Shown here: piece by piece, positions 4,322 to 32,493 of the stretch
Layout of the letters: the number at the start of each line of letters is the position of its first letter
Numbering within the stretch: position 1 is the stretch's first letter
NCBI GenBank assembly: GCA_017557345.1
Contig: JAFYZR010000101.1
Span: 1-43,153 of the forward strand
Direction of reading: 5' to 3'
DNA length: 43,153 nucleotides
DNA from: Paludibacteraceae bacterium
Lineage (GTDB): Bacteria; Bacteroidota; Bacteroidia; Bacteroidales; Paludibacteraceae
Made by a program: the position numbers and the translations under genes
Notes under the pieces: model-generated
Told to the model about the DNA's origin: nothing
Databases searched by the model: none
Seen by the model: the letters and a program-made list of their open reading frames with translations, nothing else

Positions 4322-4378
4322 TTGTTTTGATTGATTCACATTTCTTTGTACTGGAAGCACTTGTAAAGAAATAGATTG

Positions 4379-5386: not shown

Positions 5387-5443
5387 CAGGCATGATTTGT
5401 TTCGTGGGACAAAGGGAAGTTAATTCCGAAAGACCTCCAATTC

Positions 5444-5648
5444 GGCGGTTTTCATAACGAATCTAAAGAAGGACAGTGTTAAGGGTGTTTTTTTACACAA
5501 GGTTTAAAAAGGAATGGATTAATTCATTATATTTGTATGTTTACGTAGCGTACGTATTATGTACGACATTCGGCCGACGGAAGGGTCCTTGGATAGGGAT
5601 CCAAGAGGCTGGATTATTCCTTGCCTAAACGTTTTCTGGGCGAGGAAT
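5444..5648 (+). promoter_or_regulatory. promoter and structured leader RNA, copy 1 (related to 10521-10728)
   Basis: This block is a diverged copy of the sequence that precedes wecB. It contains a TATATTTG -7 box at 5528-5535. The predicted transcript then has three hairpins: 5549-5555 with 5559-5565 (seven pairs, one G-U), 5588-5594 with 5599-5605 (CTTGGAT/ATCCAAG), and 5616-5625 with 5639-5648 (ATTCCTTGCC/GGCGAGGAAT). All three stems are also formable in copy 3 although the bases differ, which argues for selection on RNA structure. Here the leader precedes the accessory cassette at 6007-7223, not a glycan gene. By analogy with Bacteroides capsule leaders it could be a target for regulated termination; that is inference. 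Confidence 0.7.
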
Positions 5649-5693
5649 GGATTTGTTTTCCATCAAAGAATTAGTGAATTTTCTGCCGATTAA

Positions 5694-5852
5694 AGCCAAA
5701 GATATATAGAAACAAATCTTTGTCACAAGACATCCTTTGAGCCGTTCGTCAAGCTTAGGGTCGAGCATAACTTCGCCAAAGTGGCCGCAGAAGGTGCCGC
5801 CCAAGTTCGCACCATCCTCGCCGGGTATCTCGAAAAGAGTATTGTTAAATAA
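5694..5852 (+). pseudogene. possible coding remnant between leader copy 1 and the three-gene cassette
   Basis: A 52-codon open frame without a start codon ends at TAA 5850-5852. Its last 35 codons are GC-richer than the surrounding DNA and read like the C-terminus of a protein (AKVAAEGAAQVRTILAGYL). I cannot name the parent family. The rest of the 5387-6006 gap holds the copy 1 promoter/leader and otherwise AT-rich sequence. A longer frame on the minus strand (5625-6041) covers the same DNA but looks like a chance ORF. Confidence 0.25.
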
Positions 5853-6006
5853 ATAGCAGGAATTATACTTTTTCGCCTCATAATTGTCATAATGGCGCAA
5901 ATTGGCACATAATGTGCTGAAACTATACAATAATGCAGCGTTGAGGAATAGACCTATTTTTGCCTGTAAGAAAATTGTAAAACATAAAACATAAAGGAAT
6001 AAAGAT

Positions 6007-6345
6007 ATGGCAGCAGAAAACCAAATTAAAGTAAAGTACAAGTATGTTGATGATTATAACCCGCAGTATGTTAACGGCGCTCATGGTGGCATCAACGTGC
6101 AAGGTGAAATTGTGGCTAATTTTTATTTTGAGCGTGTCCCAATGCCTAATTCAATTACTCATGAAATAAGCAATGAAGGAATGCTTGGTAAAGTAGTTGC
6201 CACTGAACCGGAAGATCTTACACGTTCTGTGTTACGCTATGTACAGACAGGCGTGGTAATGAACCTTGAAGTGGCCAAGCAGGTACATAAGTGGCTTGGT
6301 GATCAGATAGCAATTAGGGAAAGTCAAATAAAGGGACAAAAATGA
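6007..6345 (+). CDS. hypothetical protein, first gene of a three-gene cassette (weak resemblance to DUF3467-like proteins)
   Basis: A 112-residue soluble protein of unknown function. It has a beta-rich first half (YVNGAHGGINVQGEIVANF then YFERVPMP) and a C-terminal helix (LEVAKQVHKWLGDQIAIRE). This layout of an antiparallel sheet plus a helix ending in a WL.I pattern is loosely like DUF3467 proteins, but I am not confident. A purine-rich stretch with an AAAGGA-type sequence lies upstream of the ATG. The stop overlaps the next start (ATGA), so the cassette is translationally coupled. Expression would come from the leader copy 1 promoter about 470 bases upstream. Confidence 0.65.
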   Translation: MAAENQIKVKYKYVDDYNPQYVNGAHGGINVQGEIVANFYFERVPMPNSITHEISNEGMLGKVVATEPEDLTRSVLRYVQTGVVMNLEVAKQVHKWLGDQIAIRESQIKGQK

Positions 6346-6851
6346 ATAGTGCGGCATTAACGTTTTCATCTTCTGCTGTGGCTTTTATTGTAGGCGTAGG
6401 TATGATTCCTCAAACCTCAACAGAAACCACACCCTATGCTTTTCACCAACCAATGAGGGCTAAGCCTTCTTATGTTGCGAGCCAAACAGCATCTTCAAAA
6501 GTAGAGATGGAAATTATGATAATGCGTCGTATCGGTGCAGAAAACTATCAACGACTACAGGAAATATCACAACTTTCTAATGGTTGGGACGGATATAATG
6601 CCAAGGCAATTCCACAGAAAGTGATTTCCCGTACAAAGGAGTTGTTGATGATGCTTCCTGACGGTGCAAAGATATTTCCAACAGGACGTAGTACAGTTCA
6701 GATTGAGTACCACAAAGATTCGGACAACTATTTTGAATTGGAAGTGTCGAATACAACATACGAGATGTACAGTGTAAAGGGCGACGACGAGTATGAGGAT
6801 AGTGTCACGGAAAAGGAGATTATTAATAGAGTGAAGGAGTTTTTGGTATAA
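6342..6851 (+). CDS. hypothetical protein with GWDGY motif, second gene of the cassette
   Basis: A 169-residue protein whose start overlaps the previous stop by four bases. The N-terminus (AALTFSSSAVAFIVGVGM) is hydrophobic and could be a weak membrane or export segment, though it lacks a clear basic n-region. From residue 65 it carries a helix, then LSNGWDGYNAKAIPQ, then a helix and strands ending in a charged C-terminal helix. The GWDGY...A.PI pattern with an alternating FELEV strand recurs, from memory, in uncharacterised bacterial proteins found beside partners like its neighbours. Function is unknown. The third gene starts three bases after its stop. Confidence 0.65.
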   Translation: MNSAALTFSSSAVAFIVGVGMIPQTSTETTPYAFHQPMRAKPSYVASQTASSKVEMEIMIMRRIGAENYQRLQEISQLSNGWDGYNAKAIPQKVISRTKELLMMLPDGAKIFPTGRSTVQIEYHKDSDNYFELEVSNTTYEMYSVKGDDEYEDSVTEKEIINRVKEFLV

Positions 6852-6854
6852 CGT

Positions 6855-7223
6855 ATGGATGTTAATTTTTCTTCAGACGAGAGATTATATCGTGGTCTAC
6901 ACTCAATGTGGATAGAAGATGATGACAGCATATCATCGGCAGCATTCAAAGATTCATGCGGAGTCTCTGTTGATCGTGACGGAGGGCGAGAAGAAATAGA
7001 TTGTATAGAAAGAATGGTCGGAGCTCTTCCTCAAATTGTAGGTGTAGGGAGAATAACTTGTGGCGAAGTAGAGGAATGTGGCGCGATCCCTAAATATCTT
7101 CCTGTAGAGGGGAATGAGTATCACAGTGAAATACACGACTCTGCTGAACAAGTTCAAATAAAATCAAGATCTAAGTCAAGACAGCTAGCAAATAAATGCC
7201 AGCTTGTCTTTAAGAAACAATAA
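6855..7223 (+). CDS. hypothetical protein, third gene of the cassette
   Basis: A 122-residue soluble protein. The N-terminal half contains DERLYRGLHSMWI and AAFKDSCGVSVDRDGGR, a combination I have seen as a conserved block in uncharacterised proteins but cannot name. A later segment (GNEYHSEIHDS) has two histidines and acidic residues that could be catalytic or metal-binding; this is speculative. The C-terminal tail is basic (KSRSKSRQLANK). Only three bases separate it from the preceding gene. The following DNA is relic-rich and carries no further member of the operon. Confidence 0.62.
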   Translation: MDVNFSSDERLYRGLHSMWIEDDDSISSAAFKDSCGVSVDRDGGREEIDCIERMVGALPQIVGVGRITCGEVEECGAIPKYLPVEGNEYHSEIHDSAEQVQIKSRSKSRQLANKCQLVFKKQ

Positions 7224-7303
7224 ACGTAGCCTTACTTTTTAGATGAAACCCCGCTTGAGGGAATTAAAAAAGCCTAATGGTAAGTCCGAGAGTTCGTGCC
7301 TGA

Positions 7304-7495
7304 GCGCCCCTGGCCTTGGCAAACTTGTGCTCGTGATGCGCGACACTACCAAATGTCCCGAGGCGCTCAAGAGTAGCACTGTCCATCTTGTGGGTGGGCA
7401 CGAACCACGACTTATTGTGAACGAAGTGAGCACTCTCCTCGACGATCGGGTGGCATACGAGAATGATTAAAGCAGTCAATCCTTTTGCGATAGGA
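7304..7495 (+). pseudogene. wecB 3'-end fragment (UDP-GlcNAc 2-epimerase pseudogene)
   Basis: This segment aligns with about 11696-11882 of the intact wecB. Its reading gives PGLGKLVLVMRDTTKCPEA, LKSSTVHLVG and LIVNEVSTLLDD, against PGLGKPVLVMRDTTERPEA, LKSGTVHLVG and LIVNEVSILLDD in the intact copy. A small insertion near GGHEP and a premature stop (gaatgattaaag) break it, and nucleotide similarity continues past the stop to AATCCTTTTGCGAT. The catalytic N-terminal two thirds are absent. It is the remnant of a second wecB copy, downstream of leader copy 1 just as intact wecB is downstream of leader copy 3. Confidence 0.85.
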
Positions 7496-7550
7496 AGGCG
7501 TGTAGAAGAATAACCCACTGCACCTACGACTTTTTCCATCCAGGTCAAAT

Positions 7551-7579
7551 CAATTTCCTTCGTTGGGCGAAGGAAATTG
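7551..7579. terminator. perfect 12-bp inverted repeat, terminator-like
   Basis: CAATTTCCTTCG at 7551-7562 pairs perfectly with CGAAGGAAATTG at 7568-7579 across a 5-base loop. No long T-run follows (GACTTGTTTGATC), so it may be a weak terminator or a relic of mobile DNA. It sits between the wecB fragment and the IS21-type relic. Confidence 0.45.
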
Positions 7580-7639
7580 GACTTGTTTGATCGTCGGGGG
7601 ACTAGCGATAGTTTTGATCGTGGGCGTGGGGAATTCAAT

Positions 7640-7836
7640 GGAATTTCCGCTTCAAAGTGACCCCCTTGTCCGCTCGTAAATGACCCCCCTGGACTTATAA
7701 ACAGAAATCTAAATAGAATGCAGGCTGTTGTGGTTTTTCATACCTACAGCCTGCATTTCGGATTCTGATGAAAGAAAAAGATAACGGGGGTCAATTAGGT
7801 GCGGATTTGAGGGGGTCAATTTACTGCGGATTCTCC
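7640..7836. mobile_element. internally deleted IS21-type element or MITE with paired terminal repeats
   Basis: Each end carries two copies of a 20-base unit of the form TCCGC-N7-TGACCCCC (third base before TGA variable). They lie at 7646-7665 and 7669-7688 on the left, and inverted at 7786-7805 and 7811-7830 on the right. Such multiple subterminal repeats are typical of IS21-family ends. No istA or istB remains between them. The centre holds a perfect 12-bp hairpin (7717-7728 with 7746-7757, AATGCAGGCTGT/ACAGCCTGCATT). No target-site duplication is obvious at the tentative edges. It could be an IS21 deletion derivative moved by a full-length element elsewhere, or a dead relic. Confidence 0.65.
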
Positions 7837-7841
7837 AAAGC

Positions 7842-7934
7842 GTGGAAGATCTTTTTGGTGATGATATTCGTTCACGCTCTTTCTGGCGCGAAAAGCTTTA
7901 TGAAACCCTCATTAATAGAGGGGAAAATGAGTAA
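7842..7934 (+). pseudogene. C-terminal coding remnant next to the IS21-type relic
   Basis: A 30-codon frame ending in TAA at 7932 reads like a real protein tail (VEDLFGDDIRSRSFWREK then LYETLINRGENE). It remains open back through the right end of the IS relic, with no start codon of its own. This is what is expected if the element or a deletion removed the 5' part of a gene. The parent family is not recognised. Confidence 0.3.
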
Positions 7935-7960
7935 TCAAATCGTTGACGATTCTATTGCAT

Positions 7961-7993
7961 TTACGGCAGGGCATGATCAATACCCTGCCGTAA
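7961..7993. terminator. terminator hairpin downstream of the DUF4143-type ATPase gene
   Basis: TTACGGCAGGG (7961-7971) pairs perfectly with CCCTGCCGTAA (7983-7993), giving 11 bp with an 11-base loop. It lies about 30 bases beyond the stop of the minus-strand ATPase gene at 8023. A long U-tract is missing on both strands. Confidence 0.5.
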
Positions 7994-8022
7994 TTATTCA
8001 TGTCTCACGTTTGAGGAGTTTC

Positions 8023-9309
8023 TTAAGGCTTCAAGCATGCCAATGGTATAACCATCACGCCATCAAGACGGGTGTAGGCATATTCGCCCCCGGTGATTAC
8101 CATAAGCAGATCCGGCTCGCGGAGAGGAACCTGTTTTTCCTCTTTGTTATGTTTCCTAATAAGGTCTGCTAGTTCTTTGAGGTGAGAGGCTCCGTCTTCA
8201 ATTTCACTGCTGCCCAACTTGCACTCGATAAGGGCGTATCGACCGTCTTCCAGATGCAAAACTACATCAGCTTCAAGACCGTAGCGATCTCGATAGTGGG
8301 AGATTTCACCTCCTACTTGGGCAGAATAGACCTTGAGATCACGTACGCACATAGCTTCGAAGATAAAGCCGAAGGTCTTGAGCTGAGTTTTTAATTGACC
8401 GGGGCCAAGGCCTAAGGCGGCAACAGCTACTGACGGATCGCAAAAACTCCGCTTCTCACCACTGCGGATTGCAGTTTTAGAACGGATTGATGGGTTCCAG
8501 GCTGTGATGTCCTGGATGACGAAGAGTTTCTCCAGTGCAGCCACATATTTGTCGAAGGTGCTGCGTGCCAATGAATCGTTATTTGCCGAGACATCGGCAA
8601 GAATAGTTGTCTTATCGGCAAGGGTGGAAATGTTACGGGCATAGGAACGGAGAATAGCCCTGGCAATCTTAGGATCCAGTTTTTCTTTGGCCGCTTTTGA
8701 GATATCTTTATCGCAAACAGTCTTCACATAGTTCTTGGCAATAAGGAGTTTGCCGCGCTCCGTTTTAGGCTGGAGGGCAGCAGGCCACCCCCCGCGGCAG
8801 GCAGCAAAGATGAGATCCTCGACACTCAATTTGGAATGAGCACTTATTTCAATAGCGGGATTATCGAACAGTGCTTCCAATGAGACCTCTCCAGTCGATT
8901 CTCCTGTCTCATAGAGGCTCATCGGGGACATCGTAAGATCCGCAATCCTACCCGTGCCTGTATGTGCAGTCTCGGTTGTATCGGCAGATGTCGACCCCGT
9001 CAAGATGAACTGCGATGGCTTCTGACGACGGTCACAGGCAACTCGAACGGCATCCCAAAGCGTAGGTGCATCCTGCCATTCATCAATCAGGCGTGGCGTT
9101 TCCCCTTCCAAAAGGAGAGATGCTTTGGTCAGCGCAGTAGCGAGATATTCATCCCTCTTATCTGTGTCCTGTAGTTCGATGATACTAGCGGCTTTCTGCT
9201 TGGCCGTTGTTGTTTTTCCGCACCATTTAGGGCCTTCTATGTTGACAGCTCCAAAAGCATCCAGGTAGTCCTGCAGTTGGTCATCTATTACTCTTTTCAG
9301 GTACTCCAT
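8023..9309 (-). CDS. AAA-type ATPase with DUF4143-like C-terminal domain
   Basis: A 428-residue protein of the widespread AAA_14/DUF4143 group. The Walker A loop GPKWCGKTTT lies at residues 26-35 and the Walker B-like LIDEWQDAP at about 96-104, followed by sensor-like FILTGSTS. The C-terminus (FIFEAMCVRDL ... LEADVVLHLEDGRYALIECKLG) has the E...D...ECK spacing of a PD-(D/E)XK nuclease-like core. These proteins are common in Bacteroidota mobile regions and their role is unclear. The start at 9309 is preceded by AAAGGA at good spacing; an upstream in-frame extension to 9363 lacks this. It is a single gene, transcribed against its neighbours, between relics. Confidence 0.85.
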   Translation of the reverse strand: MEYLKRVIDDQLQDYLDAFGAVNIEGPKWCGKTTTAKQKAASIIELQDTDKRDEYLATALTKASLLLEGETPRLIDEWQDAPTLWDAVRVACDRRQKPSQFILTGSTSADTTETAHTGTGRIADLTMSPMSLYETGESTGEVSLEALFDNPAIEISAHSKLSVEDLIFAACRGGWPAALQPKTERGKLLIAKNYVKTVCDKDISKAAKEKLDPKIARAILRSYARNISTLADKTTILADVSANNDSLARSTFDKYVAALEKLFVIQDITAWNPSIRSKTAIRSGEKRSFCDPSVAVAALGLGPGQLKTQLKTFGFIFEAMCVRDLKVYSAQVGGEISHYRDRYGLEADVVLHLEDGRYALIECKLGSSEIEDGASHLKELADLIRKHNKEEKQVPLREPDLLMVITGGEYAYTRLDGVMVIPLACLKP

Positions 9310-9513
9310 AATCGCATCCTTTGTATTATGGTGCAATTTAGGCATTATACAGTACTCTACCAAATCTTTTCGAGGAATTAAACGGTGAGTTTTGTGAAAT
9401 TCTGACGGTAAGATTTGCGGATAATTGGCGGTAGGATTTGTGGTATATTCGCTATATAGGTGCTTTCTATTTGTAAATCACATAGAATAATGCTCTTTTC
9501 TCGTTATTTTGGT

Positions 9514-9592
9514 TATATTTGTGAAACAGAAAACGGAGTTATGTACGACAATATCGTAAGCCATTCGCCCCACAAAGGCTTCCTGGATTATG
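9514..9592 (+). promoter_or_regulatory. promoter and shortened leader RNA, copy 2
   Basis: TATATTTG at 9514-9521 is a -7 box. Downstream, ATGTACGACA resembles copies 1 and 3, and a different but equivalent stem forms (TACGA 9544-9548 with TCGTA 9554-9558). The terminal hairpin also recurs (TTCCT ... AGGAA, ending GGGCGAGGAATA as in the other copies). The middle hairpin is lost or much reduced. It precedes the 97-aa ORF at 9632. The remainder of the 9310-9631 gap is AT-rich and shows no gene. Confidence 0.6.
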
Positions 9593-9631
9593 GGCGAGGA
9601 ATAAATAGACAGCTCCACGTGCTTTGAGAGA

Positions 9632-9925
9632 ATGAGGCCTTTTCATACAAACATCGTAGTTCCCACGCTTATTGAACTCGGTGAGTTGGCAGGAATCATT
9701 CATGAATTAGTTCAAGAACCGATGGCCAACTGTCGTTATTATTCTGAAACAGATTTGAAAAATCGCTTTTATGAGGCGGTAAAACATGATCTTATCTCAA
9801 TAGATTTCAATGATAAAAAGAATCAACAGAAGTGGCAGTTATTATTGGAGCGAGAGAAAGTACTGGGGTCAATAGATTTCTCACAATTAAAAAAAGCGAT
9901 ACCGATGGCGAATAAAAAGGAATAG
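9632..9925 (+). CDS. small hypothetical protein (97 aa) behind leader copy 2
   Basis: Not recognised with confidence. The protein is soluble and mostly helical: VPTLIELGELAGIIHELVQE, then a polar helix (YSETDLKNRFYEAVKHDLI), then a lysine-rich C-terminus. The genomic position, just after a capsule-type leader and before a polysaccharide locus, is where Bacteroides loci often carry small transcriptional regulators such as UpxZ. Length and sequence do not convincingly match UpxZ, so this is only a contextual idea. AT-rich codon use matches the accessory DNA. An alternative internal ATG exists at residue 31. Confidence 0.55.
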   Translation: MRPFHTNIVVPTLIELGELAGIIHELVQEPMANCRYYSETDLKNRFYEAVKHDLISIDFNDKKNQQKWQLLLEREKVLGSIDFSQLKKAIPMANKKE

Positions 9926-9991
9926 GCCGTAGCACCTCGGATCTTCAATGAGAATAATCATCGACGTACTCTCCTTGTTTAAATCCGTTTA

Positions 9992-10015
9992 CCCCCCCCC
10001 CCCCCCAAAAAAAAA
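9992..10015. repeat. homopolymer tract C15 followed by A9
   Basis: Fifteen C (9992-10006) run directly into nine A (10007-10015) just before the terminator stem. The homologous site at 40613-40628 reads CCCCATACAAAAAA, so the C-run has expanded here. It lies outside any gene. It could be a slippage-prone tract or a sequencing or assembly artefact. Confidence 0.9.
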
Positions 10016-10041
10016 GGCTCGAAAGATTGCTCTTTCGGGCC
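10016..10041. terminator. bidirectional terminator (copy of the tRNA-Ser terminator)
   Basis: GGCTCGAAAGA (10016-10026) pairs with TCTTTCGGGCC (10031-10041) with one G-U pair and a TTGC loop. It is preceded by A9 and followed by TTTT, so it can end transcription on both strands. The same structure stands at 40629-40654. Confidence 0.85.
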
Positions 10042-10081
10042 TTTTCGGGGTTCAACTCTTGTAAACGATTGATTTACAGGG

Positions 10082-10306
10082 TTATTTGCGGTGAGGAAGG
10101 GTCTTGTTCTTGGCAGGGTCCTCCTTGAAGAGGGCGAGGAGGGACGCGTCGTCCATCGTCAGGATTTCCTCCAGGGTCTTCCCGCTTTGGTTGAAGGTGC
10201 TGATGTATTTCCTCACGGTGTTCCGCGAGATGTCCAGAAGGTCGGCCGTGGTCTTGCTTCCCTTGCCTGCGGCGTAGCATCGCAGGACTTGCTTGATTCG
10301 TGACAT
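10082..10306 (-). pseudogene. istA: truncated IS21-family transposase istA (N-terminal part only)
   Basis: The first ~65 codons read MSRIKQVLRCYAAGKGSK followed by a helix-turn-helix (TTADLLDISRNTVRKYIS), matching the N-terminal DNA-binding region of IS21 IstA. The DDE catalytic core and istB are missing. The frame ends by reading into the copied tRNA-Ser tail, so its last residues (TLPHRK) are translated tRNA 3' end. ATAGGAGA upstream of ATG 10306 supports this start rather than the in-frame ATG at 10327. Transposase activity is not expected. Confidence 0.85.
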
Positions 10307-10440
10307 ACTGATTCTCCTATTTGGCATGATGTATTTCGTGCTGCAGTCCGCTGCGGCACGGGGAGCCTCGTAGTATGTCCAGGGGGAACGTCATCGTGCG
10401 GCAGCGGAAGGATATAATAAGCCGTCGTACGACAACACCA

Positions 10441-10448
10441 CAAAGGTA
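10441..10448 (-). promoter_or_regulatory. -7 box for the istA fragment
   Basis: Read on the minus strand this is TACCTTTG, matching TAnnTTTG. It stands about 135 bases upstream of the istA start, in the position of an IS end promoter. No clear -33 element was seen. Confidence 0.4.
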
Positions 10449-10467
10449 GACAATAATTCCAAACTCC

Positions 10468-10518
10468 GCAAATCGGAATCAGCGAACCGGCCTCGGCGAA
10501 TCGGAATCGGGGAACCGG
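10468..10518. repeat. two 23-bp imperfect direct repeats at the IS21 end
   Basis: GCAAATCGGAATCAGCGAAC-CGG (10468-10490) and GCGAATCGGAATCGGGGAAC-CGG (10496-10518) are spaced 28 bases apart, start to start. IS21 ends usually carry several such transposase-binding repeats, so this probably marks the outer end of the element that left the istA fragment. Leader copy 3 homology begins two bases later. An operator role is possible but less likely. Confidence 0.6.
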
Positions 10519-10520
10519 AG

Positions 10521-10728
10521 GGCGTTTTTTATAACGATTCTAAAGAACGCTGATGCCATAGGTGTTTTTTTGGCACAAGTGTAAAAAAGGAATTGAATTA
10601 TTCATTATATTTGTACAATTAGGTATCGTACGTAGTATACGTACGGCATTCGGCCGTTAGGAGGGTTCTTGGATAGGAAACCGGGAGGTCGAATTATTCC
10701 TTGCTTGAACGATAATTGGGCGAGGAAT
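10521..10728 (+). promoter_or_regulatory. promoter and structured leader RNA, copy 3, upstream of wecB
   Basis: Contains TATATTTG at 10606-10613 as the -7 box. The predicted transcript folds into a perfect 8-bp hairpin (CGTACGTA 10627-10634 with TACGTACG 10638-10645), a G-U-rich hairpin (TCTTGG with CCGGGA around 10667-10686), and ATTCCTTGC (10696-10704) with GCGAGGAAT (10720-10728). The upstream part (ATAACGATTCTAAAGAA, GGTGTTTTTTTGGCACA) is also conserved in copy 1. WecB starts 43 bases after the last stem. The likely role is control of entry into the polysaccharide operon. Confidence 0.75.
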
Positions 10729-10771
10729 AGAAGTAAATGCCATACCTGAACCTATTCTGTTTTTCTTTTTT

Positions 10772-11935
10772 ATGAAAAAGATAATGCTTGTTTTCGGAAC
10801 CCGCCCAGAGGCCATCAAAATGTGCCCCTTAGTGAAGGAGTTCCAGAAGTTTCCCGACGAGTTTGAGACGATTGTGTGTGTCACAGGTCAGCACCGCGAA
10901 ATGCTGGACCAGGTGCTCAGGATATTTGAAGTCAAGCCGGACTTCGACCTGAATATCATGAAGCAGGGGCAGGATCTGTATGATGTCACAGCCCGCGTGC
11001 TTACTGGAATGCGCGACGTACTCAAGGAAGTCAAGCCCGATGTGGTGCTTGTCCATGGTGACACTACCACCAGCACCGCTGCAGCGCTCGCAGCTTTCTA
11101 CCAGCAAATTCCCGTTGGCCATGTCGAAGCAGGTTTACGCACTCACAATATCTACAGCCCTTGGCCGGAGGAAATGAACCGGCAGATAACTGGGCGAATT
11201 GCCTCTTACAACTTCGCGCCCACACCTCTTAGCGAGAAGAACCTCCTGGAGGAGAAGGCCCATGGGCAGATCTTCGTGACGGGCAACACTGTGATTGATG
11301 CCCTTCACATGGTGGTCAACAAACTCAAGAGTGATAGAGCCTTAGCGGACGAGCAAATCACGGTCTTGAAGAATGCTGGCTACGACGTCACTCGCCTTGA
11401 CAACGGCAAGACGCTCGTTCTCATCACGGGACATCGTAGGGAGAATTTTGGTGAAGGCTTCATCAGTATGGTAACAGCGATGAAAGACCTCAGTGAGAAG
11501 TATCCAGAGGTGGATTTCGTCTACCCGATGCATCTCAATCCGAATGTTCGCAAGCCCATTCACGAGGTCTTCGGTGAGGACCTTACCGCCTACAAGAACT
11601 TCTTCTTCATAGAGCCTCTGCAGTACCTGGAATTCGTTTATCTGATGGAAAAAAGCGCCGTCGTTCTGACCGACTCCGGCGGCATCCAGGAAGAGGCTCC
11701 CGGCCTTGGGAAGCCCGTGCTCGTGATGCGCGACACCACTGAACGTCCTGAGGCGCTCAAGAGCGGCACCGTTCATCTTGTAGGCACGAACCACGACCTC
11801 ATCGTGAATGAAGTGAGTATATTGCTTGATGACTCGGCTGCCTATGAGCGCATGAGTAAGGCTGTGAATCCTTATGGTGATGGGCAAGCTTGTCATCGAA
11901 TTGTCGGCGCCTTTAAAGAGTCAAGATGGGAATAA
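10772..11935 (+). CDS. wecB: UDP-N-acetylglucosamine 2-epimerase (non-hydrolysing)
   Basis: At 387 residues the protein has the usual WecB length and motifs: GTRPEAIKMCPLV at the N-terminus, HGDTTTSTAAALAA, VEAGLRT, WPEEMNRQ, GHRREN, and DSGGIQEEAPGLGKPVLVMR near the UDP site. It interconverts UDP-GlcNAc and UDP-ManNAc in the cytosol, supplying ManNAc (or a derived sugar) for the repeat unit. It is the first gene of the locus and follows leader copy 3 directly. A decayed 3' fragment of a second copy lies at 7304-7495. It is GC-richer than the following genes, which marks a compositional break at about 11.9 kb. Confidence 0.95.
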   Translation: MKKIMLVFGTRPEAIKMCPLVKEFQKFPDEFETIVCVTGQHREMLDQVLRIFEVKPDFDLNIMKQGQDLYDVTARVLTGMRDVLKEVKPDVVLVHGDTTTSTAAALAAFYQQIPVGHVEAGLRTHNIYSPWPEEMNRQITGRIASYNFAPTPLSEKNLLEEKAHGQIFVTGNTVIDALHMVVNKLKSDRALADEQITVLKNAGYDVTRLDNGKTLVLITGHRRENFGEGFISMVTAMKDLSEKYPEVDFVYPMHLNPNVRKPIHEVFGEDLTAYKNFFFIEPLQYLEFVYLMEKSAVVLTDSGGIQEEAPGLGKPVLVMRDTTERPEALKSGTVHLVGTNHDLIVNEVSILLDDSAAYERMSKAVNPYGDGQACHRIVGAFKESRWE

Positions 11936-12070: not shown

Positions 12071-13201
12071 ATGAGGATATTAGTCAATGCTTCAAACATC
12101 GGGAAAGGCGGAGCCGCTCAGGTTACCCAAAGCATCTGTGAGGGTTTAATAGAATTGAATCAACATTCATTTGTTGTGGTTCTGTCTACTTCTGCGATTC
12201 AAGCTAAAGGTGTTCTACCAGATGACCATGTTATTGAGGTAATCGAGCATTCGGTCTCGAGGTCATATTTCACAAAGATTACCGGAAGAGAGCCGTTTTT
12301 AGATGATCTTGTAACAACTCGTAAAATTGATTGTGTACTTTCTGTTTTCGGGCCAACGTGGTGGGTCCCTAAATGTCCTCATCTATGCGGTTTTGCTCTT
12401 GCGCATATCGTTATGCCGGAATCTCCATTCTTTCGAAAAATGAAATTGAGAACACGTATTAAAAGTCATTTGAATTCACGAATAATGAGTTTTTTTTACC
12501 ATAAGTGTTCTCGTTACTATTATACGGAGAATGAGATGATTTCGGAGCGTTTACGCAAGGTTTTAAAGCAAACAAAAGTCTATACTGTTACAAATTATTA
12601 TAATCAAGTTTTTGATCATCCAGAAAGATGGAAACTATCTTCTTTGCCACCCTTTTTAGGTAAAACTTTCATCACCCTGGCCGCACCATATCCTCATAAG
12701 AATTTACCCATCGCCATAGACATATCACGATATCTTAAGAACAAGTATCCGGATTTTCTTTTCCGTTTTGTTTTTTCAATAGAGGAGAAAGATTATCCCG
12801 CAATTGATGATGAACTGAGATGTCATTTTGTCTTTATTGGCCATGTATCAATCGAAGAGTGCCCGTCTTTATATCAACAATCAGATGTAGTCTTCCAACC
12901 CACATTATTAGAGTGCTTCACTGCTGCTTACCCCGAAGCAATGCGTATGGGGAAGCCCATAGTGACAACAGATCTTAGTTTTGCCAGAGGATTATGCGGC
13001 AAATCGGCGATTTTTTATAGCCCTCTTTCTTATCAAGAAGCCGCTGAGAGTCTATATCTAGTTTCCACCAACGAATCTCTTGTTCAGTCTCTAGTTCATC
13101 ATGGGCGTGAACAATTAAAGGATTTTGATAACTATTCTGATCGAGTGCATAAATTAGTTTCTCTCTGCGAACTAGTGGTAAGTGAGGGCTCTTCTTCATA
13201 A
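12071..13201 (+). CDS. glycosyltransferase, GT4-like (GT-B fold)
   Basis: A 376-residue protein starting MRILVNASNIGKGGAAQVTQ, a Rossmann-like first strand with the glycine-rich loop of GT-B enzymes. The C-terminal domain shows TLAAPYPHKNLPIAIDISRY (the usual position of the phosphate-contacting loop) and DVVFQPTLLECFTAAYPEAM with an E-x7-E-like arrangement, which normally contacts the sugar nucleotide. No membrane segment is evident. It would add one sugar to the undecaprenyl-linked oligosaccharide on the cytoplasmic face. Donor and acceptor are unknown. The 135-base gap after wecB shows no gene or clear terminator, so readthrough is plausible. Confidence 0.85.
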   Translation: MRILVNASNIGKGGAAQVTQSICEGLIELNQHSFVVVLSTSAIQAKGVLPDDHVIEVIEHSVSRSYFTKITGREPFLDDLVTTRKIDCVLSVFGPTWWVPKCPHLCGFALAHIVMPESPFFRKMKLRTRIKSHLNSRIMSFFYHKCSRYYYTENEMISERLRKVLKQTKVYTVTNYYNQVFDHPERWKLSSLPPFLGKTFITLAAPYPHKNLPIAIDISRYLKNKYPDFLFRFVFSIEEKDYPAIDDELRCHFVFIGHVSIEECPSLYQQSDVVFQPTLLECFTAAYPEAMRMGKPIVTTDLSFARGLCGKSAIFYSPLSYQEAAESLYLVSTNESLVQSLVHHGREQLKDFDNYSDRVHKLVSLCELVVSEGSSS

Positions 13202-13257
13202 TTCTACACTGGGTGTGAGTTTTTTTTTAGATTTGCCTTAAAGTTTTTTTTGTTATT

Positions 13258-14814
13258 GTGGCTAGTGTTTCATCTAATAATCTGATAGCAAAGAACACAT
13301 TATTGTTGTATGCTAGGATGCTCCTTCTTTTAGGGGTTTCTCTATATACTAGTCGCATTGTCCTTTCAACGCTTGGAGTCGAAGATTATGGTCTATATGA
13401 TGTTGTCGGAGGTGTTGTATCTATGTTTACATTTATCAGCATGGCGATGGGTAACAGCACGAACCGATATATCACATACGCCCTTGGGAAAGGAGATAAA
13501 GATGAGTTGAACGATGTTGTAAGTGCAGCATGTGTAATCCATTGGGTGATTGCTATTCTTATCCTTGTATTAGCTGAGACTCTTGGGCTGTGGTTCCTGC
13601 ATCACAAGATGGTTATTCCGGATAATCGATTGATTGCAGCCGAGTGGGTTTATCAGTTCTCTATTATCGCCTGTATGGTTACAATTATTAGTGTCCCATA
13701 TAATGCGATGATTATTTCTCATGAAAAAATGGGAGCTTTTGCGGCAATATCTATTCTTGATGCTGTTTTAAAGTTATTGATTGCTTACCTTATACAGATT
13801 ACTGGACACGATAAGCTTATTATCTACGCAGCTCTTATCTTGAGCGTTAATGTTATGAACAGGTTGATCTATCAGTTGTATTGTAAGCATACTTTTGAGG
13901 AGGCGCGGAGTATCAAGATTAAAAAGAATTATCCCCAATTTCGGGAGATGACATCTTTTGCCGGGTGGAGTATGATAGGCAATTTGGTTTATTTGGGATA
14001 CACACAGGGGGTTAATATTCTTCTAAATATGTTTTTTGGTCCTGCGGTAAATGCCGCGCGAGGCGTTGCTTTTCAGGTCCAGGGAGCGATGAATGGGTTT
14101 GTTACTAATTTTCAAACGGCAATTAATCCTCAGATTATCAAATCTTACGCAACGCGGGACTTTAAAAGACAAACGCAACTTGTATTCTCTGGATCAAAGT
14201 TTTCTTTCTTTTTGATGCTTTGCATGGTACTTCCTGTTTTTTTAGAAGCAGAAGGAATCTTGCATTTGTGGTTGAAGGATGTCCCCGATTATTCCGCAGT
14301 GTTTCTTCGCCTGGTCTTATTGATTAGTTTGGTTTCACCTTTAGAAAATCCTATTGGGATATCCAATAATGCGACGGGAGATATAAAAAAGTATCAGATT
14401 GTAGCTGGTTGCTTTAATGTATTAATTATCTTTTTTTCCTACATAGTTTTAAAAATGGGTTTCGAGCCTTATTCTGTTTTTTTTGTGCAATTAATTATAA
14501 CAACGATTGTTCTCTTTGTAAAGATCTTAATAGTGAGCCCCAAGATTGGTTTCACATTTCGGGATTATGTTTCAAAGGTATTGTTTAGGGTTTTAATAGT
14601 AACCGTTTCGTCCGCAATTGTTCCATCTATATTGCATTTTGTTGCTCCCACCGAATCCCTTATATTCCTTATTATCAATTGTATGGTAGGGGTTTGTTCC
14701 GTTTCTTTTTTTGCTTTTTTCCTAGGGATGAATACTATAGAACGTTCTTTCATCCTCAAAAGAATAAAACGAGTCATTGGCCGGTATAGTGTTGTGAATA
14801 AAAGTAATCAATAA
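13258..14814 (+). CDS. wzx: polysaccharide flippase, Wzx-like (MATE/MVF clan)
   Basis: A 518-residue polytopic membrane protein with about twelve to fourteen hydrophobic segments. The N-terminus (LIAKNTLLLYARMLLLLGV, SLYTSRIVLSTLGVEDYGLY) is characteristic of Bacteroidota O-antigen flippases. It would move the completed undecaprenyl-diphosphate repeat unit across the inner membrane. The start is GTG at 13258; it places the conserved AKNTLLLY segment about ten residues in, as is usual, and no ATG fits. It lies 56 bases after the upstream glycosyltransferase. Strongly AT-rich. Confidence 0.92.
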   Translation: MASVSSNNLIAKNTLLLYARMLLLLGVSLYTSRIVLSTLGVEDYGLYDVVGGVVSMFTFISMAMGNSTNRYITYALGKGDKDELNDVVSAACVIHWVIAILILVLAETLGLWFLHHKMVIPDNRLIAAEWVYQFSIIACMVTIISVPYNAMIISHEKMGAFAAISILDAVLKLLIAYLIQITGHDKLIIYAALILSVNVMNRLIYQLYCKHTFEEARSIKIKKNYPQFREMTSFAGWSMIGNLVYLGYTQGVNILLNMFFGPAVNAARGVAFQVQGAMNGFVTNFQTAINPQIIKSYATRDFKRQTQLVFSGSKFSFFLMLCMVLPVFLEAEGILHLWLKDVPDYSAVFLRLVLLISLVSPLENPIGISNNATGDIKKYQIVAGCFNVLIIFFSYIVLKMGFEPYSVFFVQLIITTIVLFVKILIVSPKIGFTFRDYVSKVLFRVLIVTVSSAIVPSILHFVAPTESLIFLIINCMVGVCSVSFFAFFLGMNTIERSFILKRIKRVIGRYSVVNKSNQ

Positions 14815-14834
14815 TGGTCACATAGTGTATTGGT

Positions 14835-16052
14835 ATGATTACGAAGATAATCGAGAATAGGGGAATGAATCATGAAGTATCCTTATGCCCGCCTAGTGAT
14901 TGTACGGGCTGTTTTGCTTGCGAAGCGATTTGCTCCCAAAGTGCCATAAGTCAGTTTATTGATAAAGAAGGCTTTCGTTACCCACGTATCAATTATGAGA
15001 AATGTATAGGATGCGGGGCTTGCGAAAGGACCTGTCCAGTTATTAACCCTATCAAGAAATATCAAACAGGGAAGATTTATGCCGCCTGGTCATTAGATGA
15101 TCGTATTCGAGAGAAGAGTTCGTCTGGTGGCGTTTTTTCAGAGTTAGCTCTTGCGACTTTACGTAAAGGTGGCGTTGTTGTTGGCGCTTCAATGGATGTG
15201 AATAGTGGTTATATTTACCATTCAATTGTTACTTCCGAGGAAGATCTCGACTCCTTGCGAGGCAGTAAATATGTTCAAAGTAATATCTCCGGTAGCCTTT
15301 ATCGAAGTATTTCGATCATACTTAAAGAAGGTAGAGTCGTCCTTTTTTCTGGTTGTCCATGTCAAGTAGCAGGGATAAGGTCTTATTTTAAGGATTGTGA
15401 AAACCTTTTTTGTATTGATTTAGCTTGTCATGGTGTTCCTTCACCGGAATTATTTAAGATGATGTTTGATGAGCTTAAGTCGGCTGTACCTCATCTTGAG
15501 AAATATAATTTTAGGCAACTGAAAATGTGGGGATCATGTACCTCTCCAAATATTGTAGTATCCAATTTAAGACAACCAGTTCTTTTGACAGGAAAATATA
15601 CATTTTACCAAGATGCATACATTAAGGGATACTCTCTGAGAAGTAACTGTTATTCTTGTCAGTATTCAAGTGTTAATAGGATTGGAGACATATCTTTAGC
15701 GGATTTTTGGGGGATTGGAAAGATGAGACCTATTGATGCTTCATACAAGAAAGGGTGTTCTTTGGTCTCTTTAAATAATGAAAGAGGGGCATACCTTTAT
15801 AATGAAATCAAACAAGCTTTATTCTGTGAAGAAAGAGAAATCGAGGAAACAATAGAAGGAGGGAATACGCACTTTCAGAGGTCATGTGACAGGCCATCAG
15901 AAAGAGATTCTTTTTATTGCGATGTCAAGTCTTTATCCATTGATGAGCTTATCATTAAGTATAATCTCTCTTTAATCTCAAAGCCAACCATCTTTAATAA
16001 AATAATCAATAAGGTTTATAATCTTCTGCGAGTTTTTTTTAGGAGGAAATGA
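14835..16052 (+). CDS. iron-sulfur protein with FrhB/F420-hydrogenase beta-subunit-like domain
   Basis: Two ferredoxin-type clusters are visible near the N-terminus: Cys 23/26/29/33 (CTGCFACEAIC) and Cys 57/60/63/67 (CIGCGACERTC). The remainder resembles the FrhB-type domain of coenzyme F420 hydrogenase/dehydrogenase beta subunits, including SSSGGVFSELA and FSGCPCQVAGIRSYF. Such proteins occur in many polysaccharide loci directly beside a polysaccharide pyruvyl transferase-family gene, as here, and are thought to be flavin/iron-sulfur redox partners; the reaction is not established. Its stop overlaps the next start. M11 is an alternative start. Confidence 0.85.
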   Translation: MITKIIENRGMNHEVSLCPPSDCTGCFACEAICSQSAISQFIDKEGFRYPRINYEKCIGCGACERTCPVINPIKKYQTGKIYAAWSLDDRIREKSSSGGVFSELALATLRKGGVVVGASMDVNSGYIYHSIVTSEEDLDSLRGSKYVQSNISGSLYRSISIILKEGRVVLFSGCPCQVAGIRSYFKDCENLFCIDLACHGVPSPELFKMMFDELKSAVPHLEKYNFRQLKMWGSCTSPNIVVSNLRQPVLLTGKYTFYQDAYIKGYSLRSNCYSCQYSSVNRIGDISLADFWGIGKMRPIDASYKKGCSLVSLNNERGAYLYNEIKQALFCEEREIEETIEGGNTHFQRSCDRPSERDSFYCDVKSLSIDELIIKYNLSLISKPTIFNKIINKVYNLLRVFFRRK

Positions 16053-17158
16053 AAGCTTCTCTTGTAACAATTCATACTGGGCATAATTACGGGACAGTGC
16101 TCCAAGTAATTGCATCGGTCTATGTGTTGAATAAGCATAACATTGATGTGACTGTTGTAAATTATATCCCGCCTCGTTGCACGTACCGCTATCTATTGGC
16201 CAATACAAAGAAAGCTATAAAAAGCAAGAAGGGTGTATCAAAGATAAAGAGTATACTGTCAGGGATACATAGTCTATACTTTTTATGGAACACAAATCTC
16301 GTTTTCTTGGGCACAATAAAAAGGTATTGTTCTTTGTCCAACAAGATATATTGGGGCGATTCGTTTGCGAAGAAATGCCCCAAAGCTGATTATTATATTA
16401 CGGGTAGTGACCAAGTTTGGAATTCGTGTCATAATCAGGGAATAGACACTCATTATTTTTTTGATGGCATTGAGGGACGGAAATATGCTTTGTCTTCATC
16501 CATTGGAGCAGAATCCCTATCGGAAGAAGAAAAAAAGAGATTCCATGATTTCCTTAAACAATACGAGGCTATTTCAGTTCGGGAAGATAAAGCTGTTGAG
16601 TTATTACGAGAGATAGGGATCTCATCCATTCAAGTTTTGGATCCTACGTTGGCACTTAATAGGGAGGAATGGCATAATGCTGTTTCTTTTAGAAGAATGA
16701 TAAAACGCGACTATCTGTTGCTTTATATCCCTTATAATGTTCATGATAAGGAGGTGATTCTCTCTTTTGCCAAAAAAATAGCGGTAGAAAAGAATTTGAG
16801 AATTGTGACTTTTACCGGTATGGTGAAGAAAAGGGATGAAATAGATTGTTTAGTATTAAATACCGGGCCTTCTGGTTTCATTTCTCTGATGTATTATGCG
16901 GACTGTATTATTACGAATTCTTTTCATGGAACAGCGTTCTCCATAAACTTTAACCGAAACTTTTGGGTCTTTATGCCCACGGCGTTTACATCAAGAATTG
17001 AGAGCCTATTGAGTTTATGTGGGTTAGAGGACAGAATTGTTGAAGAAAAAAGGGATGTTTTATATACACAAAGAGAAATTGACTATTATAGAGTTAACCA
17101 GGTTCTTGATGAAGAAAGAGTTAAATTCAATGGTTTTATCACTTGCCATTTCAACTAG
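16049..17158 (+). CDS. polysaccharide pyruvyl transferase family protein
   Basis: A 369-residue protein with the family's landmarks: an N-terminal TIHTGHNYGTVLQ segment, the central YYITGSDQVWNS motif and the C-terminal TNSFHGTAFSI motif, whose His is usually conserved. Characterised members transfer pyruvate from PEP to a sugar as a ketal, but many in FrhB-linked pairs may do something else. AGGAGG stands directly upstream and the ATG overlaps the previous TGA, so it is translationally coupled to the iron-sulfur protein. Cytosolic, acting on sugar nucleotides or lipid-linked intermediates. Confidence 0.88.
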   Translation: MKASLVTIHTGHNYGTVLQVIASVYVLNKHNIDVTVVNYIPPRCTYRYLLANTKKAIKSKKGVSKIKSILSGIHSLYFLWNTNLVFLGTIKRYCSLSNKIYWGDSFAKKCPKADYYITGSDQVWNSCHNQGIDTHYFFDGIEGRKYALSSSIGAESLSEEEKKRFHDFLKQYEAISVREDKAVELLREIGISSIQVLDPTLALNREEWHNAVSFRRMIKRDYLLLYIPYNVHDKEVILSFAKKIAVEKNLRIVTFTGMVKKRDEIDCLVLNTGPSGFISLMYYADCIITNSFHGTAFSINFNRNFWVFMPTAFTSRIESLLSLCGLEDRIVEEKRDVLYTQREIDYYRVNQVLDEERVKFNGFITCHFN

Positions 17159-17191
17159 TTATTACTTGGCATATACAAAACGTTTTAATTG

Positions 17192-18340
17192 ATGGTTATT
17201 CATTGTCATCACTCTTTTAATCCCGTTTCTGGGGAAATGAAGAGGATTATTAACATTGATAATGATGTCGTTGGTTTCTTTGACGAAGGTATTATTGAAT
17301 TAGAGTTCTACTCTATTCGCAACTATCTATTTGTCAAAAATAAGGGGAGGTTTGTGCTGTCAAATAGAGTAATTAAAAAGTATTATGTCCCCAATGTTCC
17401 AAGACTGGGCGTTATCAATTCTTTTTTTCGATTTTTCGTTATTCTGTATCTTTTTTTCAGGTATAAGCCTTCGTTATTTTTAGAAGAATGGTCATTACCA
17501 AAAGGAATAAAACTATTAAAATACCTTTTTAAAAAGTGTAAAATCGGTCTTGATATACATGGCGCCGCTCCTGAAGAGTTCTATTATCTCCATAAAAAAC
17601 CATCTCGAATGTTGATTCGTCAAGAGCGTTATTCTGTCTTTGCGGCTGATTTTATTATCTGTCAGTCTGATGAGATGAGACGCCATCTTGAGCATAAGTA
17701 CGGGATCACAGAAGGTATTACAGTCTATCGATGCGGGGTCGATATCAACATTTTTAAGGTAGATTCTGTACTTCGATCTACAGTAAGGGATTCCTTGGGG
17801 GTATCGGATGATGATTTAGTATTTGTCTATTCTGGAGGTATGCATAGTTGGCAGAAAGTTTATGATTCGGCACAAATCTTTGTAAAGTATCATTCTTTGA
17901 ACGAGCATTCTGTTTTTCTTATTCTAACAAAGGAGGTCTCCTTGTGTAAAAGGATCCTATTTGAGGCGGGGGGGGATTCTCTATTAAATTCCTCATTTAT
18001 TGTCTCTCTTCCCTTTGATGAAGTTCCTAAGTATTTAAATGCAGCGGATGTCGCTTTCCTCATTAGAGATGATGACATCATGAATGCGGTAGCTTCTCCA
18101 ACAAAACTTGCTGAGTATTTTGCATGTGGTTTGCCTATTATTTCATCAAGAGTTTCGAAGAAATGGATTAGCGGTGAAGGGCAACGATTTGTTTTTGATG
18201 CCGATAATTTAAACTATGCTTGCTTATTTGAATCGATTCATTGCATAAATAAACAGCAAATCTCCGATTTTTCCTCAAAAGAATTGTCTCTAGAGATAGA
18301 TCGGGAAAATGTACAACAGTTCCTGAGCTCTTATCTATAG
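17192..18340 (+). CDS. glycosyltransferase, GT4-like
   Basis: A 382-residue GT-B-like protein. It shows LDIHGAAPEEFYYL where the acceptor domain contacts the lipid-linked sugar, then VYRCGVDINIF, FVYSGGMHSWQKVY at the interdomain donor site, and ASPTKLAEYFACGLPIISS, the usual GT4 C-terminal block. A hydrophobic stretch near residues 75-95 (VINSFFRFFVILYLFF) may dock it to the membrane. The start is ATG 17192; a TTG at 17189 is in frame but unnecessary. It lies 33 bases after the pyruvyl transferase-like gene. Sugar specificity is unknown. Confidence 0.85.
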   Translation: MVIHCHHSFNPVSGEMKRIINIDNDVVGFFDEGIIELEFYSIRNYLFVKNKGRFVLSNRVIKKYYVPNVPRLGVINSFFRFFVILYLFFRYKPSLFLEEWSLPKGIKLLKYLFKKCKIGLDIHGAAPEEFYYLHKKPSRMLIRQERYSVFAADFIICQSDEMRRHLEHKYGITEGITVYRCGVDINIFKVDSVLRSTVRDSLGVSDDDLVFVYSGGMHSWQKVYDSAQIFVKYHSLNEHSVFLILTKEVSLCKRILFEAGGDSLLNSSFIVSLPFDEVPKYLNAADVAFLIRDDDIMNAVASPTKLAEYFACGLPIISSRVSKKWISGEGQRFVFDADNLNYACLFESIHCINKQQISDFSSKELSLEIDRENVQQFLSSYL

Positions 18341-18397
18341 TATCATTTATAAACGAGAGATTTCAGCGTGTAATAATAACTAAGTGATCCGAAGGCT

Positions 18398-19459
18398 ATG
18401 ACGATGTTATTGACACTAGTTCTGCTCGCAGTTATATTCCGAACAGTGATATCTTTGTATCCAGAAGATAATCATTCTAGACAAACTGCTGAAGGAGTCT
18501 ATTGTAATATTATATACAGTTTAATCATCTTTATTGCGGCTTTTCGAGGAAGCGGAGTCGGTGCGGATACAATGAGTTATATCGATGATTATCACGTTGT
18601 TGCCACGATGTCTTTCCCGGAAATTGCGGAACGATTTGAGGGATATTGGGGGTTCTATTTTTTAAGTAAAGTATTCTCTATTTTTAAAGCTCCTCTGTGG
18701 GTTTGGTTTGGATTTGTCGAATTCGCTTATGTGTCCTCAATTGTTCGTCTCATTAACAAGTTTTCTAAAGACCGTTTATATAGTATCATTCTCTTCATCG
18801 TATCAGGATTGTTTCTTTTCTCTCTTGCTGGTTTAAAACAGATTCTTGCCATGGGTATTGTTTTACATTCGTTTCTAGATTATGTTGACAAGAAGTATCT
18901 AAGAAGTCTTTTTTTAATAATTGTAGCATACCTGTGTCATCCCATAGCGATGGTTATGCTTATTACTTTTATCCTTTATTATTTTAAAGATAAAACGGTT
19001 TTCCCATTGATTGTTATCATAGCAGTTGGTATAGTGACAATTGGTAGGCTGACAGTATTGGGCTATTTAGTAAACTTTCTGGGGAATGACCATTTTGAGG
19101 ACTATCTAGTATTAAACACATCATATACTAAGAGTACCCTTTATCTTTATCTACTGCTGCTTGCGTGTTCTATACTTTTTCTTCACGATTATTTTAAAAG
19201 CTCTAATACTGGTAAGTTTGAATTCTCATGTTTGTTGATTGGGTGTTCCTTTCAATTCTTGGCATCTTATTCTCCAGCTTTATTTAGGATGTCGCTTTTT
19301 TTTACGCCTTTTTATTTGGTATTCCTTCCAGGAGCATTTGATGCTAGGAAGAAAAAAGACTTTATCTTTGTATTCTTTAAGTATGCTGCGCTATTAGGGG
19401 CGATTGTATTCCAATTGTATGCTTCTCGAGGTTTTGTGTTTACTTTTTCATTCTCATGA
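18398..19459 (+). CDS. wzy: EpsG-family polysaccharide polymerase (Wzy role)
   Basis: A 353-residue polytopic protein with about ten hydrophobic segments. The early FRGSGVGADTMSYIDDY block is typical of the EpsG family, in which an FRg...G.DT..Y motif precedes the periplasmic region. It is the only plausible repeat-unit polymerase in the locus, which otherwise follows a Wzx/Wzy-dependent layout. It would act at the periplasmic side of the inner membrane, joining repeat units after Wzx flipping. The stop overlaps the next start by four bases (ATGA). The wzy symbol is assigned by role. Confidence 0.85.
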   Translation: MTMLLTLVLLAVIFRTVISLYPEDNHSRQTAEGVYCNIIYSLIIFIAAFRGSGVGADTMSYIDDYHVVATMSFPEIAERFEGYWGFYFLSKVFSIFKAPLWVWFGFVEFAYVSSIVRLINKFSKDRLYSIILFIVSGLFLFSLAGLKQILAMGIVLHSFLDYVDKKYLRSLFLIIVAYLCHPIAMVMLITFILYYFKDKTVFPLIVIIAVGIVTIGRLTVLGYLVNFLGNDHFEDYLVLNTSYTKSTLYLYLLLLACSILFLHDYFKSSNTGKFEFSCLLIGCSFQFLASYSPALFRMSLFFTPFYLVFLPGAFDARKKKDFIFVFFKYAALLGAIVFQLYASRGFVFTFSFS

Positions 19460-20760: not shown

Positions 20761-20772
20761 GGCTATCTGGTT

Positions 20773-21921: not shown

Positions 21922-21933
21922 AACTGTATTAAG

Positions 21934-25016: not shown

Positions 25017-25041
25017 GTTTTATGAATTAATATTGTAGACG

Positions 25042-25707: not shown

Positions 25708-25708
25708 T

Positions 25709-26353: not shown

Positions 26354-26377
26354 TAACTAATTAATAGCAATACAATT

Positions 26378-26593: not shown

Positions 26594-26601
26594 GAAAAAG
26601 C

Positions 26602-30341: not shown

Positions 30342-30399
30342 GTGGATAGAGAAAAGTGTTCAAGGATTACATTTTTAGATTGATTAAACTACTTGAATA

Positions 30400-31200: not shown

Positions 31201-31219
31201 CTTTTTGCAGGCGGTTATC

Positions 31220-32467: not shown

Positions 32468-32493
32468 GCTTTGTCCTGGCGGAGAATCCAGAG

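Follow-up and report, generated by a model that had tools for sequence, protein, structure and literature searches.

What does a stretch of DNA repeated ahead of a long polysaccharide gene cluster do, and does it act as an RNA that is kept across related loci? The question is raised by a 43,153-nt stretch (hereafter the window) of a Paludibacteraceae bacterium (assembly GCA_017557345.1, contig JAFYZR010000101.1, forward strand). A preliminary description had noted here three diverged copies of a promoter plus structured leader and proposed a conserved RNA element of surface-glycan loci. We found that two copies, c1 (5444-5652) and c3 (10521-10732), are intact, while the third, c2 (9514-9602), is a truncated relative. 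The intact copies look like a real but very local regulatory element, which we tentatively read as the promoter and three-hairpin 5′ leader RNA of a wecB-first exopolysaccharide operon, acting in cis and perhaps on elongation.

A promoter-leader module in two intact copies

c1 and c3 share 77% identity over approximately 208 nt (BLASTN, E 9.5e-40). Each consists of a TATATTTG promoter and a leader of approximately 115 nt predicted to form three hairpins (H1 to H3). TATATTTG was called a promoter box on the basis of TANNTTTG, which we take to be the Bacteroidetes-type -7 box. In both copies the first hairpin lies 13 nt downstream of TATATTTG, with arms of different sequence (CGTACGT/ATGTACG in c1 and CGTACGTA/TACGTACG in c3), and the final hairpin has the form ATTCCTTGC...GCGAGGAAT. 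The window contains GGGCGAGGAAT exactly three times, both strands counted, once each in c1, c2 and c3. Identity between c1 and c3 is even within the module, at 65/85 columns (76.5%) upstream of the promoter and 98/127 columns from TATATTTG through the last hairpin, and it falls to 42% and 46% in the 100 nt flanking either side when these are forced into a global alignment. The edge of the module after GGGCGAGGAATRGA is therefore sharp.

Predicted fold and pair preservation

Leaders were folded from the base after TATATTTG and compared with 200 shuffles. For both c1 and c3 the predicted fold comprises H1, H3 and, between them, H2, which has an inner stem; the energies are -44.3 and -40.2 kcal/mol, and the z scores of -4.07 and -4.12 place both below all 200 shuffles. 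The opposite strand folds more weakly (-28.9 and -24.2 kcal/mol, z -2.89 and -2.26 for c1 and c3), and the DNA upstream of the promoter showed no notable folding in either copy (z scores in Table 1).

To assess pair preservation, each copy was folded alone and its pairs were counted as kept or broken in the other copy. One null placed the same substitutions anywhere, and a second held the number of changed paired sites. In the comparison based on the c3 fold, 36 pairs were counted, of which 10 change and 2 break (null 8.44, P 0.0006; held null 4.40, P 0.035); one further pair, which meets a gap, was set aside. With the c1 fold, 10 of 37 pairs change and 1 breaks (null 7.62, P 0.0001; held null 3.76, P 0.011). 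The two folds have 34 pairs in common, 8 of which change and none of which breaks; in seven of these eight, one side is exchanged so that a G-U pair is gained or lost, whereas the eighth is two-sided (T-A to C-G). Read on the other strand, the seven one-sided exchanges would be A-C mismatches. As one-sided transitions should lead to A-C about as often as to G-U, finding G-U in seven of seven (1 in 128) favors the transcribed strand, although the shared pairs are a favorable choice and the c3 fold also shows one A-C. Changes fall at 12/72 paired versus 14/40 unpaired sites in the c3 fold.

Pair-keeping thus provides real but modest evidence for an RNA fold, drawn from two sequences. The proposal that base changes preserve pairing stands in that fewer pairs break than expected; however, nearly all the changes are one-sided and c2 adds no structural support. 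An element acting at the RNA level is supported by the stronger fold of the transcribed strand and the few broken pairs, whereas two-sided covariation is limited to one pair.

Position of the copies relative to wecB

wecB starts 39 nt past the end of the c3 module and is the first of 32 same-strand open reading frames (ORFs) reaching position 40565, a list hand-picked from a program-made one, whose members may not all belong to the operon. The three genes that come first behind c3 have matches to an epimerase, a glycosyltransferase and MatE, and the members of the cluster include glycosyltransferases, MatE, pyruvyl transferase, EpsG, WbqC, Bac_transf, PglD_N, DegT aminotransferase and VanZ. 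Past approximately 33 kb the matches (DUF5677, DUF386, SEC-C, nitroreductase) are no longer polysaccharide-like. The cluster measures 22 to 30 kb, according to the end point taken. Nine gaps in the picked list exceed 50 nt, and a TANNTTTG box is present in one of them.

A decayed wecB remnant lies 1.6 kb downstream of c1, with unrelated ORFs between. Both intact copies are therefore tied to wecB in this window, but not across the genus (see below). A possible upstream ORF of 12 codons precedes wecB; we found no homologous stretch after c1, where a peptide-like fragment had no Pfam match up to E 5.

Table 1. Coordinates of the module copies and of the associated genes within the window.
Feature	Position	Strand	Remarks
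c1, region upstream of promoter	5444..5527	+	Conserved with c3 (76.5%); unstructured, z -0.09
c1, TATATTTG	5528..5535	+	Presumed Bacteroidetes-type -7 box (TANNTTTG)
c1, hairpin H1	5549..5565	+	7 pairs, loop ATT; different pairing when the fold includes the promoter
c1, hairpin H2 with inner stem	5568..5614	+	Predicted fold
c1, hairpin H3	5615..5649	+	13 pairs; ends in GGGCGAGGAAT + G
Decayed wecB remnant	7240..7554	+	Core 7306-7394, 82% to the window's wecB; gaps, stops
c2, truncated relative	9514..9602	+	TATATTTG 9514-9521; hairpin TACGA/TCGTA 9544-9558; TGGGCGAGGAAT 9591-9602
c3, region upstream of promoter	10521..10605	+	z -1.83
c3, TATATTTG	10606..10613	+	
c3, hairpin H1	10626..10646	+	9 pairs, loop GTA
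c3, hairpin H2 with inner stem	10648..10694	+	Predicted fold
c3, hairpin H3	10695..10729	+	14 pairs; ends in GGGCGAGGAATA
Possible 12-codon upstream ORF, MPYLNLFCFSFL	10737..10775	+	Putative; TGA overlaps wecB ATG (ATGA)
wecB, UDP-N-acetylglucosamine 2-epimerase	10772..11935	+	First gene after c3; TIGR00236, 491.9 bits (cut-off 210.15)
Same-strand ORFs behind wecB	12071..33066	+	Polysaccharide-type and other enzymes

A possible role for the leader

In the reading that we tentatively favor, c3 would be the leader of the present operon and c1 would stand before what is left of an older or displaced wecB. The leader would be transcribed and would act in cis on the long transcript, making RNA polymerase or general Nus factors more processive through the 22-30 kb cluster. 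This action is suggested by analogy with other polysaccharide-operon leaders, such as the epsC motif (which we take to be the element called EAR), and here no dedicated NusG paralog would be involved. Protection of the 5′ end of the transcript comes next in likelihood. From 9735 to 12243 the + strand showed nothing like an intrinsic terminator; H3 is therefore not an attenuator of the simple type.

Full-length transcription of long polysaccharide operons often requires assistance. If the leader does this job, it would represent a route for a long operon other than a NusG paralog, and it would suggest why such leaders get missed, as they would change too fast for similarity searches. We consider it distinctly unlikely that the module represents something broader, namely a fast-evolving, lineage-restricted cis leader that confers processivity without a NusG paralog and moves between loci as a gene-independent promoter-leader module.

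Observations that weigh against an elongation-promoting leader

Several observations count against the role proposed above. Pairs are broken in both comparisons: with the c3 fold, 103-111 (A-T to A-C) and 21-41 (T-G to G-A); with the c1 fold, 60-75 (G-T to G-A). A gap removes one H1 pair, and covariation is weak, with one two-sided pair in two full sequences from one genome. The opposite strand still outdoes almost every shuffle (its value is reached by 0 and 4 of 200), as expected because the stems are palindromic. H1 itself is a near-perfect palindrome and a possible DNA operator. When promoter letters are included in the folding, H1 of c1 re-pairs while H2 and H3 are unchanged; H1 in c1 thus depends on the position at which the RNA starts. 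Terminator-like sites between 5400 and 25300 number 24, compared with 16.7 +/- 4.7 in shuffles; they are not clearly enriched, and a need for antitermination is therefore not supported. For the assembly, which comprises 155 contigs, the listed completeness is 100% and the listed contamination 6.84%. Finally, a covariance model built from c1 and c3 (R1, weak because it comprises two sequences) did not detect c2 among its 16 matches at E <= 10 in a search of the whole window with filters off. Our confidence in the proposed role was lowered slightly because R1 misses c2 and because H1 of c1 depends on the RNA start.

We nevertheless regard c2 as genuine sequence kin of c1 and c3, although not as evidence of a kept fold. 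It shares with them, in the same order, TATATTTG, a GTACG-to-CATTCG stretch and TGGGCGAGGAAT. Its chained local score to c1 or c3 is 21.2, whereas 2,000 dinucleotide shuffles averaged 9.4 and peaked at 17.7, and windows over c2 rank first of 2,152 scanned when those overlapping c1 and c3 are set aside. However, its H1-like hairpin begins 22 nt past the TTTG box rather than 13, and it is without ATTCCTTGC, the 5′ strand of H3; the predicted c2 fold pairs GGGCGA with TCGCCC and is no better than chance (z -0.06). The three diverged copies of the preliminary description, with hairpins at equal positions and a final motif pairing with an upstream strand, are therefore borne out for c1 and c3 and only partly for c2, whose assigned end at 9592 cuts through a motif that spans 9591-9602.

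The remaining points on this side come from searches for further copies. Genome counts given here include the genome under study, and the family, genus, order and phylum sets overlap. Within its own genome, R1 matched only c1 and c3 at E <= 10. On sets of more than 40 genomes R1 was run with stricter filters, and among the results listed for the order and phylum sets no genome had more than 8 and 10 scored candidates, respectively. Under these settings it matched the own genome and one other among 178 genus genomes (G180, E 0.0147), and the own genome only among both 393 order genomes and 335 phylum genomes. The G180 match was rejected, as it covers part of the structure only and sits in a run of TACGTA-like repeats. 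With laxer filters on 40 relatives, R1 matched the own genome and G364 (E 0.52); the latter is not convincing, and a similarity check of it showed nothing.

BLASTN searches, in which two candidates per genome were scored, gave a similar picture. With c3 as the query, 29 of 358 family genomes (own included) had matches at E <= 0.01. Apart from the two places in the own genome the 29 matches listed were 19-40 nt long, and 23 of them fell within query positions 44-109, which comprise the upstream AT-rich stretch, the promoter and the start of the leader; they were taken as chance without individual inspection. With c1 as the query, three of 286 order genomes besides the own one had matches, of 29-43 nt, all of which were taken as chance. 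One (L144, E 5.8e-5, - strand near base 1500) is a 39-base H3-like stretch inside a ketosynthase-like gene, another (L145) is an AT-rich match, and the third (L143) is a promoter with a different palindrome. In L143, on the - strand near base 1500, the palindrome GTTCACGTAACGTGAAC comes close behind TATATTTG; the pair precedes an unrelated gene in an operator-like arrangement.

Pattern searches were also performed. An H3 pattern found 26 stretches in genome_contigs and 13 in viral_contigs (IMG/VR). R1 gave 8 matches at E <= 1 over these 39 (best L086, 0.0014, and L077, 0.022), which were taken as chance because the score rests mainly on H3, the criterion by which they had been selected. A second pattern had no match in viral_contigs, and c3 had none in phage and plasmid records. 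The pattern TTTG followed by TACGTA-NNN-TACGTA, judged from the matched strings only, occurred in 11/178 genus genomes (own included), compared with 15/178 for a reversed control. The L039 region (61-169) contains a run of a 9-base unit like TACGTAGTT, and similar repeated strings were seen where this pattern matched G148, G152 and G024, further genomes of the genus.

We also read by eye the regions upstream of 29 other wecB loci of the genus (L109-L137), the closest of them with a WecB 92% identical; these were the best loci from the 110 of 178 genus genomes with a match. The leader was absent from all of them, and we therefore reject it as a constant companion of wecB. In many of these loci a gene seems to reach as far as wecB, which is then not the first gene, and this limits the test.

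Taken together, the element looks confined to one genome among the sets searched, metagenome contigs not being among them. The idea of an RNA conserved across glycan loci is thus not supported: no convincing copy was found in 358 family, 178 genus, 393 and 286 order or 335 phylum genomes. This is largely the outcome that the preliminary description had itself named as speaking against its proposal. Its statement that the motif was not one it recognized held up: for c1 and c3 the Rfam matches up to E 10 were all weak and unrelated, and at the gathering threshold the whole window, c2 included, gave only a tRNA. None of the paper titles and abstract beginnings listed by a literature search, outside of which most subscription papers lie, describes such a motif.

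Alternative explanations

The module may be a DNA element, with H1 serving as a repressor operator past the -7 box or the hairpins forming in single-stranded DNA, and the RNA fold a by-product. H1 is indeed palindromic and lies at the same distance from the box in both intact copies, the DNA upstream of the promoter is conserved as much as the leader, and a palindrome close behind a TATATTTG box is also present in an unrelated genome (L143, above). We nonetheless consider this unlikely, given that the seven one-sided G-T exchanges in the shared stems favor one strand and that H2 and H3 are long, imperfect and un-operator-like. Control of translation is an alternative that we judge to be similarly doubtful. 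Here, H3 would hide a GAGGAA that, when opened, would let ribosomes start the 12-codon upstream ORF, controlling wecB translation and polarity in the operon. In c1 as in c3, the GAGGAA in the 3′ strand of H3 is paired to a TTCC strand, and the upstream ORF of c3 ends in an ATGA overlap with wecB; however, the stretch past the module is not conserved (46% between c1 and c3), and a passage in PMC6847099 describes members of the Bacteroidetes as lacking Shine-Dalgarno sequences.

The lack of convincing conservation elsewhere, the broken wecB behind c1 and the truncation of c2 are what one would expect if the module had no present function and were a duplicated, decaying stretch of an old operon that folds by chance. 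This seems quite improbable to us, because paired sites have changed less than unpaired ones (12/72 versus 14/40, as above) and pairing is mostly kept. Finally, the leader could be the target of a NusG paralog of the UpxY type, as in Bacteroides capsule loci. The setting fits, as an untranslated leader precedes polysaccharide genes and UpxY is described, in an extract of PMC12632263, as mediating antitermination in such a place. However, the assembly has one NusG-domain gene and it is canonical, and the matches of the first three genes behind c3 are to an epimerase, a glycosyltransferase and MatE; an UpxY-type partner is therefore not supported, and we hold this explanation to be very improbable. 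The NusG-domain gene is flanked by ORFs that we read from their translations as secE and rplK and is near a preceding ORF that is presumably EF-Tu-like. A missed gene is possible in an assembly of 155 contigs, and the same search found no NusG-domain gene in 8/41 relatives and two in 7/41. With these alternatives considered, we retain, tentatively, the reading of c3 as a cis-acting leader of the wecB-first operon.

Genomic surroundings of the module

The positions 10002-10101 and 40615-40714 form a direct repeat (84%) that comprises the 3′ end of tRNA-Ser(CGA) and its terminator, and an intact tRNA-Ser(CGA) lies at 40701-40788 on the - strand. The polysaccharide locus between the repeats resembles an island that either inserted at a tRNA-Ser gene or was exchanged next to one. 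Beside c3, at 10082-10327 on the - strand, is a gene for an 81-residue helix-turn-helix protein that resembles the N-terminus of a transposase, presumably of the IS21 IstA type, and ends beside the duplicated tRNA end. Beside the terminator, at 9992-10015, 15 C are followed by 9 A, possibly a slippage-prone tract or a weakness of the assembly. The stretch 1451-9363, around c1 and before c2, is varied in content: a protein of 956 residues carrying an HSP90-like ATPase domain, a DUF4062 protein, two ORFs whose PDC-M32A/B matches are weak and a DUF4143/AAA_14 ATPase (PDC-S01); this mixture is suggestive of a defense or mobile island.

Comparison with known systems

Structured leaders of polysaccharide operons are already a known kind. 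Of the features by which leader RNAs are generally recognized, a structured, transcribed region between promoter and first gene is seen in c3 as far as predicted structure and position go, while covariation across several genomes is not, as the element was found in one genome only in the sets searched. In what is presumably the same phylum, UpxY/UpxZ are described in extracts of two sources as acting by antitermination in the untranslated region ahead of Bacteroides capsule genes (PMC12632263, PMC12118408). The module shares with these leaders an untranslated region ahead of polysaccharide genes; there, however, the cognate NusG paralog is often the first gene, whereas here wecB is first and no upxY-like gene is among the first genes. 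For the long dfn and mln antibiotic operons, a passage of PMC12691694 reports that a small RNA hairpin in the leader, bound by LoaP, is needed for antitermination. A small leader hairpin ahead of a long operon is again the likeness, but LoaP is a NusG paralog of other phyla with a UNCG-type hairpin, unlike the single canonical NusG-domain protein found here.

JUMPstart, which works with RfaH, resembles the module in being a stem-loop element in the 5′ untranslated region (5′ UTR) of polysaccharide genes. An extract of PMC2864571, listing it for Gammaproteobacteria (RF01707), places it in the 5′ UTR of polysaccharide genes, describes its stem-loop as conserved and ties it to transcription elongation. 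RF01707 was not matched by c1 or c3 to E 10, nor by c2 at the gathering threshold, and no NusG paralog was found here. The same extract lists the epsC motif (RF01735) for Bacillales; this structured RNA occurs in what may be the 5′ UTRs of exopolysaccharide genes, and transcription antitermination has been reported for it (PMC2864571). RF01735 likewise was not matched by c1 or c3 to E 10, nor by c2 at the gathering threshold; the likeness lies in the arrangement, as in both cases a structured RNA, predicted in the case of c1 and c3, stands ahead of exopolysaccharide genes.

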